Assembly (NCBI GenBank): GCA_029238785.1
Contig: JAQWFN010000035.1
Coordinates: 1-40,651, forward strand
Source of the DNA: Flavobacteriales bacterium
GTDB lineage: Bacteria > Bacteroidota > Bacteroidia > Flavobacteriales_D > Sanyastnellaceae
Length of the DNA stretch: 40,651 bases
Direction: 5' to 3'
Of this stretch, positions 3,481 through 6,985 are shown piece by piece. The position numbers and the translations under genes are program-made. Under the pieces are notes generated by a model that saw only the letters and a program-made list of their open reading frames with translations, was not told where the DNA came from and did no database searches. Numbering within the stretch: position 1 is the first letter of the stretch; the number at the start of each line of letters is the position of its first letter.

Positions 3481-3641
3481 AATGCTTGTGCTTTCTTCTT
3501 ATTTGCAGGTGTGAAAATACAAAAGTTCCCTTTTTTAGCTAAGTATGACCTGCTTTTTCCTTCGAATTCAATTTTCATTGTTTTTCAGGCAAGCTAGAAT
3601 CAAAAAATGCTCGATTCATCGGGTCTCGGCTTATGATAGTT

Positions 3642-3649
3642 TATCTTTG
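3642..3649 (+). promoter_or_regulatory. -7 box of the smpB-bioA operon
   Basis: TATCTTTG, a perfect match to TAnnTTTG, lies 7 nt before the ATG at 3657. An upstream in-frame ATG at 3633 precedes this box and so is not the start. Confidence 0.65.
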
Positions 3650-3656
3650 CCTTCCT

Positions 3657-4100
3657 ATGGCAGTAGAAATTAAAAATAAGAAGGCGGCTTATCGCTATTT
3701 TTTAGAGGATGAAATGATCGCTGGGATCTCCCTTTTGGGTTCAGAAATCAAGAGCGTTCGTGCTGGAAAAGCCAGTATTGTGGAGGGCTATTGCCGATTT
3801 AAAAACGGTGAGCTTTTCGTGTACAACATGTTTATTGCCGAATATGAAAACTCGGGTTATGTGAGCCACAAGCCAAAGCGACCGAGAAAATTGCTCCTCA
3901 CCAAACACGAGTTAGAGAAGCTAGAAAAGAAGCTTAAAAACGTTGGTTTGACCATTGTGCCCATACTCATGTTTATCAGTGAAACCGGCTTCGCGAAGCT
4001 AAAAATAGCCGTAGCTAAAGGGAAGAAGCTCCACGATAAGCGCGACGACCTCAAGCAGAAAGATTTAAAACGAGATATAGATCGAGCAGGGAGAATATGA
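3657..4100 (+). CDS. smpB: SsrA-binding protein SmpB
   Basis: At 147 aa with the full SmpB fold, this protein binds tmRNA and brings it to stalled ribosomes for trans-translation. Visible family motifs are NKKAAYRYF near the N-terminus, GSEIKSVRAGKASI (the LxGxEVKSLR-type block), EYENSGYVSHKPKRPRKLL, and the C-terminal GKKLHDKRDDLKQKD segment that enters the mRNA channel. The start at 3657 is chosen from the TATCTTTG box. The stop overlaps the bioA start as ATGA (4097-4100), so the two are translationally coupled. One copy of the palindrome GCTTCGCGAAGC lies inside it (3988-3999). The ssrA RNA itself is not in this window. Confidence 0.96.
   Translation: MAVEIKNKKAAYRYFLEDEMIAGISLLGSEIKSVRAGKASIVEGYCRFKNGELFVYNMFIAEYENSGYVSHKPKRPRKLLLTKHELEKLEKKLKNVGLTIVPILMFISETGFAKLKIAVAKGKKLHDKRDDLKQKDLKRDIDRAGRI
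3988..3999. repeat. palindrome GCTTCGCGAAGC, copy 1
   Basis: A perfect 12-bp palindrome within smpB, followed by TAAAAATAG. It is one of four exact copies in the window, two of them in this operon. Confidence 0.9.
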
Positions 4101-5392
4101 AGATAGACCTTAAAAGCTATCCCATTTGGCACCCTTTTAGTCAGATGAGCGAATGGGCTGAAATGCCGAAAATCATTCGGGCTGAAGGGGTGTGGTTGTA
4201 TGATGAAAAGGGCAATAAAGTAATGGATGCCATTTCATCGTGGTGGGTGAATTTGCATGGACACGCCCATCCGCACATCGCCAAAAGAATTAAAGCCCAA
4301 CTTGATCGCTTTGAACACGTCATTTTTGCGGGCTTTACGCACGATCATGCCATTGAATTGTGCGAGCGTTTACCAAAGCATTTACCGCAAGAAGACTGGA
4401 AGTTTTTCTTCTCAGATAACGGTTCAACTTCCATTGAAGTGGCCTTGAAGTTGGCCATTCAGAAGTACATTCAGCACGATAAAGTAGAAAAAGTCACCAT
4501 CATTGCGCTTGAGGGTGCTTACCACGGCGATACCTTTGGGGCGATGTCTGCCGGTGAGCGCGGATTTTTTACCGATCCTTTCGAACAGCACTTGTTTGAC
4601 GTGAAATTTATTCCATCACCCACAAAAGAGAATGCCGCTGTTTGCATGAAAGCGCTTCAAGAAGCCTTGGGCGAGCACAATGTCTTGATTTTTGAGCCTT
4701 TGGTTCAAGGTGCAGGAGGGATGATCATGCATGATAAAGCGCTTTTGGACGATTTGCTTCGCGAAGCTAAAAAGAACAAGACCATCACCATTGCAGACGA
4801 AGTGATGACCGGTTTTGGTAGAACTGGAACTTGGTTTGCGAGCAATCAGTTGAAGCATGTGCCCGACATGATTTGCCTGTCAAAAGGTTTGACTGGAGGG
4901 GCTTTGCCCATGTCATTAACCGTTTGTAAGCAATGGATTTACGATGTTTTTCTTACGGAGGATTTGAGCTTGGCCTTTCTTCATGGTCACAGTTTTACAG
5001 GAAATCCTTTGGCTTGTGCTGCGGCTTGTGCCTCATTGGATTTGATGGAGGAAAAGAAAACGTGGGAGCAAATCGAGATGATTTCAAGCATGCACCGAGA
5101 AGCTGCTGAAAGGATGAAGGACTGGGGCAGTGTGAAGTCGGTACGAACCTGTGGAACCATACTCGCCATTCAGGTGGAAAGTGACCTTGAGGCGGGTTAC
5201 ATGCATCCTGTTCGGGTTCGTTTGTACGATGCTTTCATGAAGCAGGGCATGCTCATTCGTCCGCTCGGCGATGTGATTTATTTGCTACCGCCCTATGTGA
5301 TTAAAAAGGAAGACTTACTTTGGGCCTACCAAATGATTGAGGAAGTGCTTTACACTGAAGTAGAATCCAACTTGAAAGCAGATGTACATTAA
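4097..5392 (+). CDS. bioA: adenosylmethionine-8-amino-7-oxononanoate transaminase
   Basis: This PLP-dependent class III aminotransferase makes 7,8-diaminopelargonic acid from KAPA with S-adenosylmethionine as amino donor, a step in biotin synthesis. The N-terminal YPIWHPFSQMSEW and SSWWVNLHGHAHP are diagnostic of BioA rather than other class III transaminases. The PLP Asp-Glu motif is ADEVMTGFGRTG, and the Schiff-base Lys is Lys263 in SKGLTGGALPMS. Length (431 aa) is normal. It overlaps smpB by 4 bp and the following ketoacyl synthase by 11 bp, so the three are probably co-translated. No other bio gene is nearby. A copy of the 12-bp palindrome is at 4756-4767. Confidence 0.95.
   Translation: MKIDLKSYPIWHPFSQMSEWAEMPKIIRAEGVWLYDEKGNKVMDAISSWWVNLHGHAHPHIAKRIKAQLDRFEHVIFAGFTHDHAIELCERLPKHLPQEDWKFFFSDNGSTSIEVALKLAIQKYIQHDKVEKVTIIALEGAYHGDTFGAMSAGERGFFTDPFEQHLFDVKFIPSPTKENAAVCMKALQEALGEHNVLIFEPLVQGAGGMIMHDKALLDDLLREAKKNKTITIADEVMTGFGRTGTWFASNQLKHVPDMICLSKGLTGGALPMSLTVCKQWIYDVFLTEDLSLAFLHGHSFTGNPLACAAACASLDLMEEKKTWEQIEMISSMHREAAERMKDWGSVKSVRTCGTILAIQVESDLEAGYMHPVRVRLYDAFMKQGMLIRPLGDVIYLLPPYVIKKEDLLWAYQMIEEVLYTEVESNLKADVH
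4756..4767. repeat. palindrome GCTTCGCGAAGC, copy 2
   Basis: An exact 12-bp copy inside bioA, followed by TAAAAAG as in copy 1. Confidence 0.9.
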
Positions 5393-6446
5393 CGCTTATT
5401 CTTTCATCAGCGCAGCCGGCGAGAACCATTTCAAAAACGAAGTGGCTTTGAGCAAAGTTAAGGGCAGGTGGGCTGGTAGCGTGGATCTTCCTTTGGTTTT
5501 TGACCAGCGTTTTCAGCGCGACGATCGCATAGTACATTTGGCTTTGCATTGTGCTCGCTATATCGATTTCCTTCCTCACCTTGAACCTGCTTTAGTAAAT
5601 TTGGCTTCTTCCCGAGGAGCAACTGCCACTTTGGAGCAGTACATGAAGCTTTTCTTGAGTGATGGTAAATTGCCTCCTCTGGTTTCACCCCTCACTACCG
5701 CGGGAAGATTGTCGAGCACAGTGGCGGATTACTTGCAAGTTTCAGGGCTGGTTTTGGATCATAGCATGACCTGTTCTGGAGGTTTACAAGCCTTGATGAA
5801 TGCACAACAATTTTTGAATTCGGGTAAAGTAGAGCAAGCCCTTGTTGGTGCTTCTGAGGCCTGTTTGACCGATTTTACCTTCGCTCAATTTGATGCTTTA
5901 AGGCTCTATTCTCAAGAAAGCGACATCGCATGTAAGCCTTTGATTGAGAAGGAACACAATACCATGGTTTTGGGTGAAGGCGCCGGACTCTTTGTTTTGT
6001 CGAACGTGCGCGGACCCGCTTGTAGATTTAGGATTAGTGGCATTGGTCAAGGCATTGAACACGCTCAACATGCAGTAGGTTTGAAGGGCGACAATCTCAT
6101 TGCGAGTATGGAAGGCGCCATGCTCAATGCCAATGCGCCGAGCGTTGATTGCGTGATCGCCCATGCTCCTGGTACTATTTTGGGAGATCAGCTTGAAATG
6201 GCGGCGATTCGTTCTGTTTTGGGTGATGTTCCCGTGATTTCAAACAAGTGGAAATTCGGACACACCTTAGCGGCATCTGGAATTCTGAGTATTTTCTGGG
6301 CCATGGAGTTGATGAAAGGCTGGAGGCCACAAGTTCCCGAAGCCTTGAGGGCCGCTCATCAAGCGCCAGATCAAATCAATATAGTAATGGTCAATGCCTT
6401 AGGTTTTGGCGGAAACGCCACGAGTGTTTTGGTGGAAAGGTGTTAA
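5382..6446 (+). CDS. beta-ketoacyl synthase-like protein coupled to bioA
   Basis: This 354-aa thiolase-fold condensing enzyme has the catalytic set of FabB/FabF-type synthases: nucleophile Cys131 in SMTCSGG, His261 in AHAPGT and His294 in KFGHTLAASG. The LGEGAG motif is also present. It is about 55 residues shorter than FabF, with a reduced N-terminal half. The start overlaps the end of bioA by 11 bp, so it is almost certainly made with BioA. I infer that it supplies or elongates the acyl chain for the pimeloyl part of biotin. A role in other lipid synthesis cannot be excluded. It is not a FabH/BioZ-type enzyme, which would have a Cys-His-Asn triad. Confidence 0.78.
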   Translation: MYINAYSFISAAGENHFKNEVALSKVKGRWAGSVDLPLVFDQRFQRDDRIVHLALHCARYIDFLPHLEPALVNLASSRGATATLEQYMKLFLSDGKLPPLVSPLTTAGRLSSTVADYLQVSGLVLDHSMTCSGGLQALMNAQQFLNSGKVEQALVGASEACLTDFTFAQFDALRLYSQESDIACKPLIEKEHNTMVLGEGAGLFVLSNVRGPACRFRISGIGQGIEHAQHAVGLKGDNLIASMEGAMLNANAPSVDCVIAHAPGTILGDQLEMAAIRSVLGDVPVISNKWKFGHTLAASGILSIFWAMELMKGWRPQVPEALRAAHQAPDQINIVMVNALGFGGNATSVLVERC

Positions 6447-6985
6447 TCAACCACCTTAAATTTCTCATTAAAAGCTTCAAAGTCCCACAAGAACATCTTT
6501 ATGATTTCATCCAAGTTTTTGGTGAAGATGGGGTTAGGCGTTTTGGCATTTTTAAAGAATTCTTCTTGAAAATCATTCAGCTTGTACTTGAAGAACACCG
6601 CTTTAGACATCGCATAAATGGTGTTTTTCGAAGGGTGATTGATCCGTCCCATGAAGGTTCTGTACTCCTTTAGCTTTGTAGCGAAGTCTTCTTTAGAGAT
6701 GTCAAAAACCTGAGCGAACTTTTCGATACAGCGTCGGATAATCTCGCGATCGTGTCCATCAGGAAAATGGTTAGGAATAAAGTCGAAGTTACCAGCGATA
6801 ACAATCATCAAGAATTTCCCGAGATCATCTTCGCTCACATTTGGGTTGCGCACGAATTCCGGACTATCGTTGATGAAGCCGGCCACCTCTGGCCACCCTT
6901 TTTCAACAGTCTCGATAGTGGTATTGACAATGATGTTTGCCACTTTTTCGTCCGTGAGTTTCTTCTTTCCGAAGATTGCTAGCAT
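6443..6985 (-). CDS. conserved cytoplasmic protein of unknown function, 180 aa
   Basis: I do not recognise a family. The sequence is mostly helical in character, begins MLAIFGKKKLTDEKVAN, has no signal peptide or membrane segment, and contains a charged block HFPDGHDREIIRRCIEKF in the middle and an aromatic-rich C-terminus (KMFLWDFEAFNEKF). It is a single gene with its own good promoter. Its stop overlaps that of the convergent ketoacyl synthase by 4 bp, and no terminator is visible between the two. Confidence 0.75.
   Translation of the reverse strand: MLAIFGKKKLTDEKVANIIVNTTIETVEKGWPEVAGFINDSPEFVRNPNVSEDDLGKFLMIVIAGNFDFIPNHFPDGHDREIIRRCIEKFAQVFDISKEDFATKLKEYRTFMGRINHPSKNTIYAMSKAVFFKYKLNDFQEEFFKNAKTPNPIFTKNLDEIIKMFLWDFEAFNEKFKVVD

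Follow-up and report, generated by a model that had tools for sequence, protein, structure and literature searches.

A KAS I/II-type ketosynthase of Flavobacteriales biotin operons and its possible role in forming the pimeloyl chain

In alpha-proteobacteria, biotin synthesis involves BioZ, a type III 3-ketoacyl-acyl carrier protein (ACP) synthase (KAS) (PMC7645780, PMC8024396), and the unmasked 3-ketopimeloyl chain is described as entering type II fatty acid synthesis (PMC12915131, PMC7645780). For Desulfovibrio, a mask-free biotin route with a KAS was first proposed in PMC545781; the biotin cluster is reported to include a KAS, DVU2563, that is needed without biotin according to mutant fitness data, and to lack bioC and bioH (PMC10102598). 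Ketosynthases in biotin clusters are already known, and what is new in the case described here is the type of KAS, the lineage, and the acyl pocket. The gene lies on a 40,651-nucleotide stretch of DNA (the window) from a member of the Flavobacteriales (assembly GCA_029238785.1, contig JAQWFN010000035.1), where it directly follows bioA. A search of open-license articles, mostly at the level of titles and abstracts, did not find this KAS named as a biotin gene of the Bacteroidota.

We think it likely, from sequence comparisons, that this gene encodes a dedicated biotin-synthesis ketosynthase that extends an unmasked dicarboxylyl primer towards pimeloyl-ACP, as BioZ does on another scaffold. Because the protein has the KAS I/II fold and the Cys-His-His-Lys residues, we expect Cys131 to accept an acyl primer that is then condensed with malonyl-ACP. 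This primer would most likely be a dicarboxylyl group of short chain length, bound as a thioester (either glutaryl, or first malonyl and later glutaryl), and Arg78 would hold the carboxylate at its free end. The 3-keto product of the condensation would be reduced by the ordinary FabG, FabZ, and FabI of the cell to yield pimeloyl-ACP for BioF, and the methyl-ester mask of BioC/BioH would be dispensable. Glutaryl could be formed by the same KAS from malonyl, or it could come from elsewhere. The substrate and reaction of the KAS are inferred, as are the involvement of housekeeping reductases and a biotin phenotype. A more ambitious version, in which a single KAS I/II enzyme in Flavobacteriales performs both condensations on unmasked malonyl-ACP (from C3 to C5 and on to C7), with the Arg reading the carboxylate at each length, is possible but doubtful. 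We know of no FabF-type enzyme for which unaided priming on dicarboxylyl groups has been proven biochemically. A preliminary description of the window had suggested that a FabF-type enzyme could be a lineage-specific route to the pimeloyl chain, and this idea gains indirect support from the place of the KAS in operons, the lack of BioW matches and of BioC matches above the cut-off in 50 KAS-bearing genomes, a BioE-like gene in a relative that lacks the KAS, and an invariant Arg.

First, the KAS family is found mainly in biotin operons of Flavobacteriales. We searched 59 relatives beside the window's own genome, and in all 10 that had a strong match (E of 7.3e-50 or better), the KAS lies downstream of bioA on the same strand; within the fetched stretch, two of these have the order bioF-bioD-bioA-KAS-bioB and one has bioD-bioA-KAS. 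A scan of public contigs gave at least 587 matching stretches, among them at least 467 relatives, of which the best 80 were kept (mainly Flavobacteriaceae by title), with up to 8 kb fetched on each side; 22 of these loci are cut by contig ends. The 80 loci were ranked by their likeness to a seed alignment, and because all of its rows came from bioA neighborhoods, these loci sample the bioA-linked clade rather than all KAS. In 75 of the 80, the fetched stretch contains bioA, bioB, bioD, or bioF. bioA is upstream of the KAS on the same strand in 71, and it is within 300 bp in 47 of those 71 (based on mechanical calls of open reading frames [ORFs]). The order bioF-bioD-bioA-KAS-bioB occurs 37 times and bioF-bioD-bioA-KAS 29 times, or 66 of 80 together. 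The preliminary description had called for a survey of this kind in Bacteroidota; its stress on bioA alone proved too narrow, as the KAS is often part of a whole bioF-bioD-bioA-KAS-bioB operon. The titles of some metagenome-assembled genomes (MAGs) among the 80 loci are doubtful: L060 is labeled as Bifidobacterium, and in the tree, L112 and L116, labeled as Lentimicrobium and Sphingobacterium, group with Flavobacteriaceae.

Second, the window protein is a KAS of type I/II. Both ketoacyl-synt domains are present (PF00109 at 54.9 bits and PF02801 at 50 bits, with cut-offs of 20.8). The FabF equivalog (TIGR03150) is its best family match, at 97.2 bits relative to a cut-off of 493.75. The FabH-type model scores 18.8 of the 249 bits required, and Pfam's ACP_syn_III barely passes (24.5 versus 24 bits, across residues 125 to 160 around the Cys). 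An AlphaFold2 model has a complete KAS fold (mean pLDDT, the predicted local distance difference test, of 94.6) and matches FabF (2rjt) with a Z score of 47.7 and a root-mean-square deviation of 2.1 over 352 residues. The triad that had been read from the sequence alone, Cys131-His261-His294, is found at just these positions; along with Arg78 and Lys289, it is invariant in a 46-row alignment of the family. The catalytic Cys, both His, and the Lys are kept in all of 92 family rows (91 of them distinct, as L058 and L183 are the same contig). We rejected membership in BioZ because the KAS is of the wrong type: the third residue of the triad is His in 92 of 92 rows versus Asn in E. coli FabH.

In a phylogenetic tree, 20 members of the family were on one side of a branch (support of 100/100) from 14 other KAS, namely, FabF and FabB from E. 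coli, the genome's own FabF, two KAS from a cluster of E. coli CFT073, and nine KAS from relatives. An earlier tree with a FabH outgroup and 26 family rows gave a support of 83/97 for the clade. We take the CFT073 cluster to be of the aryl-polyene type. By these sequence comparisons, the family is a clade separate from FabF, FabB, and the aryl-polyene KAS, and an identity as an aryl-polyene KAS is not supported by the tree, in which the family's own clade has 100/100 support with the two CFT073 enzymes present. The preliminary description had considered that grouping with polyketide or aryl-polyene enzymes would speak against a role in biotin synthesis; grouping with aryl-polyene enzymes was not seen in this tree, which included the two CFT073 KAS and left out polyketide KAS. 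A search of plasmids gave distant KAS only (472 of 472 records at under 60% identity).

The KAS might instead be an ordinary extra FabF, for fatty-acid or pigment synthesis, that lies beside bioA by chance. The best-matching family and the fold are those of FabF, and 5 of the 80 family loci have no bio gene nearby. However, the FabF score is far below the cut-off, the family forms its own clade, 75 of the 80 loci do have bio genes, and the acyl pocket appears to be rebuilt (see below). Also, the genome (3.11 Mb, 99.57% complete) already has its own FabF: when we used the window KAS as a query against it (E of 1), the only match besides itself was a KAS of 415 amino acids on contig C99, which groups with FabF. 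We therefore disfavor a second ordinary FabF and consider it very unlikely.

Third, the acyl pocket is unusual. In FabF, the acyl pocket is described as gated by Ile108 and Phe202 (PMC7138838). Arg78 of the window KAS aligns to Ile108, and a profile comparison with hhalign gave the same register. This Arg is present in all 92 family rows and in none of the 14 other KAS, which have Ile, Val, Thr, Gly, or an alignment gap. Similarly, residue 134, which is Val in E. coli FabF, is Ser in all 92 rows and in none of the 14. Leu111 and Gly198 of FabF are both replaced by Thr in 92 of 92 rows, Ala162 by Thr in 91 of 92, and Phe133 by Ala, Thr, Ser, or Val; Phe400 is kept in all 92 rows, and Phe398 is changed in all of them. 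We assume that the changed positions other than Ile108 and Phe202 line the acyl pocket of FabF. If so, the pocket of the KAS would be without much of FabF's greasy lining and would be positively charged. An invariant Arg at this place fits a primer whose carboxylate is free. In BioZ, Ser84, Arg147, and Ser287 are proposed to neutralize the free carboxylate of the glutaryl primer (PMC8024396). We read the apparent use of Arg by two types of ketosynthases in biotin clusters as convergence.

We then considered other early routes to biotin. We searched 51 genomes: 50 that bear the KAS (38, mostly named isolates, were picked by hand among the 80 public loci, and the other 12 belong to our G series) and G007, a relative that does not. 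BioW was found in none of the 51, and in 2 of 14 control genomes (B. subtilis and M. jannaschii). A look for BioC and BioW elsewhere in the genome had been proposed from the outset, and neither was found in the 50 KAS-bearing genomes (for BioC, by the cut-off of the model). With the G007 protein as the query, BioE-like genes were identified in 2 of the 51 genomes, G007 and Pedobacter BS3 (G196), and thus in 1 of the 50 with the KAS. In G007, the BioE-like gene (L180:590-1222) closes the operon bioB-bioF-bioD-bioA-bioE; the Pedobacter gene (L185:1489-2094) encodes a protein that is 53% identical. The iron ligands of EmBioE and CpBioE are reported to have the spacing E-x26-E-x2-H-x68-E-x29-E-x2-H (PMC12915131). 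This exact six-ligand spacing is present in both L180 and L185, and the L180 gene was the sole match among 1824 ORFs scanned. At the E-values applied, neither Pfam nor NCBIfam gave a family match for the L180 protein, and its AlphaFold2 model is all-helical and weak (pLDDT of 67.2). We call both proteins BioE-like given the ligand spacing and, for G007, the place in the operon, as set beside the description of the published BioE.

The distribution of the KAS across the order also links it to biotin. We analyzed 177 Flavobacteriales genomes that are at least 95% complete, with thresholds of E of 1e-60 for the KAS, 1e-105 for bioA, 1e-10 for BioE-like, and 1e-20 for BioC. The KAS was found in 10 genomes, bioA in 98, BioE-like in 1, and BioC in none. 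All 10 genomes with the KAS are bioA positive (P = 0.0024, Fisher test). Within the window's own family (f1, 35 genomes), the KAS is present in 7 of 8 bioA-positive genomes and 0 of 27 bioA-negative genomes (P = 1.2e-6, Fisher test), and the eighth bioA-positive genome is G007, with its BioE-like gene. Because the genomes are related, both P values overstate the independence of the observations. In the window's genome, a bioF-like gene and bioD are together on contig C34. We set aside a search with the bioF model across the order (loci L134 to L163 were not used): in the window's own genome, the top match, on C84, outscores the bioD-linked bioF on C34, so matches to this model in other genomes may be paralogs.

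Several observations weigh against our interpretation, one of which is the limited reach of the search for early genes. BioC did not score above the cut-off (184.95 bits) in any of the 51 genomes, in a genome-wide search that covered BioC, BioW, and BioE-like and left out BioI, BioZ, and BioH-type esterases. At an E of 1e-20 or better, 1 of the 51 genomes, Zunongwangia, has a BioC match, at 91.7 bits; in the window's genome, there are 12 weak matches, the best of which has 49.2 bits. Among the 14 control genomes, the BioC model gave a match in 5 at E of 1e-20 and scored above its cut-off in just 1. Because the model reaches few of the controls, a divergent BioC could be missed. In that case, the KAS could be the partner of a divergent BioC/BioH pair and carry out a specialized elongation of the methyl ester of malonyl-ACP, with the mask coming from a methyltransferase encoded elsewhere in the genome, and the operon context would fit equally well. 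We consider this unlikely: besides the absence of BioC above the cut-off from the 51 genomes and also from the 177 genomes of the order sample, E. coli BioC and BioH as queries had no match in 91 KAS neighborhoods, and a charged chain end would suit the invariant pocket Arg better than a methyl ester would.

Also, of the 98 genomes of the order sample that have bioA, 87 (77 from family f9, 7 from f3, and 3 from f10) did not have a match to the KAS, BioE-like, or BioC at the thresholds used, so the lack of known early genes, taken alone, is no argument for the KAS. These genomes may use another early route or a divergent enzyme, or they may rely on scavenging. In addition, the Pedobacter genome of locus L056 (G196) contains the BioE-like gene as well as the KAS. 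Both observations would suit a KAS that acts in biotin synthesis but not in the pimeloyl condensation: for example, it could supply an acyl chain for later cleavage, or act as a decarboxylase or as an acyl-transfer partner of BioF. This seems improbable, as the Cys, both His, and the Lys of a condensing KAS, which would not all be needed in a simple decarboxylase or scaffold, are kept in 92 of 92 rows, and the sole bioA-positive genome without the KAS in the sample of the window's family has a BioE-like gene.

As to the dicarboxylyl-primed ketosynthase that we favor, the operons seem to lack a dedicated reductase, dehydratase, or ACP: with E. coli queries and a threshold of E of 1e-4, FabG-like genes were found in 3 of the 91 neighborhoods, AcpP-like genes in 2, and a FabZ-like gene in 1. 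Bio genes are missing from the fetched stretch at 5 of the 80 loci (L056, L063, L064, L091, and L106). The first three, from Pedobacter (L056), Solitalea, and a Bacteroidetes MAG, form one branch of the Sphingobacteriaceae type (support of 100/100), and since these loci group together, the KAS of this branch may have a different role. The link of the KAS to biotin holds for the Flavobacteriales and for one MAG labeled as Saprospiraceae (L105), and not for the branch of L056, L063, and L064. In the pocket, some of the changes are shared with other KAS (Thr at 198 in 6 of 14 and at 111 in 1 of 14), and Arg78 is placed there by alignment. Finally, the R147A variant of BioZ is reported to retain partial activity (PMC8024396).

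Features of the window and its immediate biotin locus are listed in Table 1.

Table 1. Features at the bioA-KAS locus of the window
Feature	Position	Strand	Remarks
smpB	3633..4100	+	Pfam SmpB, 178.4 bits; 4-bp overlap with bioA
bioA, adenosylmethionine--8-amino-7-oxononanoate transaminase	4097..5392	+	TIGR00508, 515.1 bits (cut-off 405)
KAS I/II-type ketosynthase of biotin operon	5382..6446	+	354 amino acids, ATG start; Cys131, His261, Lys289, and His294 catalytic (predicted); Arg78 at FabF Ile108 position (by alignment)
Codons of residues 78-83 (RGATAT), inside the family signature S-S-R-G-A-T	5613..5630	+	Arg78 aligned to FabF Ile108
180-amino-acid gene directly after the KAS, on the opposite strand	6443-6985	-	No Pfam family at E of 0.001

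The 11-bp overlap of bioA and the KAS (5382-5392) that had been noticed at the outset agrees with the ORF coordinates, and a sister species (G001) has the same bioA-KAS pair, also with an 11-bp overlap (as worked out from coordinates); the KAS is probably translationally coupled to bioA. Since smpB in turn overlaps bioA, smpB is perhaps the first gene of a smpB-bioA-KAS unit. The same order, with smpB before bioA, is seen in 6 of the 10 relatives (L034, L038, L039, L041, L042, and L043). The KAS had also been described as shorter than FabF. This is correct for the window protein (E. coli FabF has 413 amino acids, and the genome's own FabF has 415), but the shortness is confined to the window's genus, where lengths are 354 and 353 amino acids; the median across the 80 public relatives is 387 (from mechanical ORF calls). 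The stretch that is missing from the short KAS is in the N-terminal third.

We also observed other genes near the KAS. A homolog of the 180-amino-acid gene adjoins the KAS, on either strand, in 6 of the 10 relatives (L034, L038, L040, L041, L042, and L043). A small gene (median of 135 amino acids) is upstream of bioD in 33 of the 80 KAS loci (for example, L095:4138-4521), and it lies between bioF and bioD in all 14 copies that were inspected; the L095 copy has a weak match to DUF2007 (20 bits, below the cut-off). An 811-amino-acid gene before bioD in L168 was rejected as an early biotin gene, as it encodes the beta chain of phenylalanyl-tRNA synthetase. At L183 (G062:C128), the genome search flagged one TAA in the match to the KAS, and the fetched stretch has a KAS ORF of 381 amino acids after bioD-bioA. 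This TAA is probably a normal stop, because the match ends where the ORF's stop codon lies.

If our interpretation is correct, the KAS would close the missing pimeloyl step for many Flavobacteriales, and predictions of biotin auxotrophy that rest on BioC/BioH would be corrected. (In one survey, the set of four late biotin genes is reported to be complete in 69.3% of Flavobacteria [PMC9561691].) The KAS, with its FabF scaffold, and BioZ, with that of FabH, would also form a matched pair for understanding how ketosynthases accept charged primers.

Among the known systems, FabF and FabB (KAS II and I) share the fold, the catalytic residues, and both Pfam domains with the window KAS, whereas the family is in a separate clade, has Arg at the Ile108 position in every member examined, and, in the case of the window KAS, is far below the cut-off of the FabF equivalog. 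BioE fills the same gap in other Bacteroidota, and a BioE-like gene is in the operon of G007, which lacks the KAS; however, BioE is an unrelated diiron oxygenase that is described as cleaving long acyl chains (PMC12915131). DVU2563 of Desulfovibrio, compared through the description of its cluster, is a KAS with a FabF annotation in a biotin cluster without BioC or BioH, and it is proposed to elongate unmasked malonyl-ACP (PMC545781, PMC10102598). The Desulfovibrio cluster adds ACP-, FabG-, and FabZ-like genes, while the KAS operons described here are regularly without them. BioZ is also a ketosynthase of a biotin cluster, it condenses a dicarboxylyl primer, glutaryl-CoA, with malonyl-ACP without BioC/BioH, much as we propose for the KAS, and it has Arg and polar residues at the end of its pocket (PMC7645780, PMC8024396). 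BioZ is a FabH-type enzyme with Cys-His-Asn whose reaction has been assayed, whereas the window KAS is a KAS I/II with Cys-His-His-Lys whose reaction we infer. The BioZ-type traits that are shared across the KAS family are the place in the biotin cluster (75 of 80 loci) and the absence of BioC above the cut-off (0 of 51 genomes with it).

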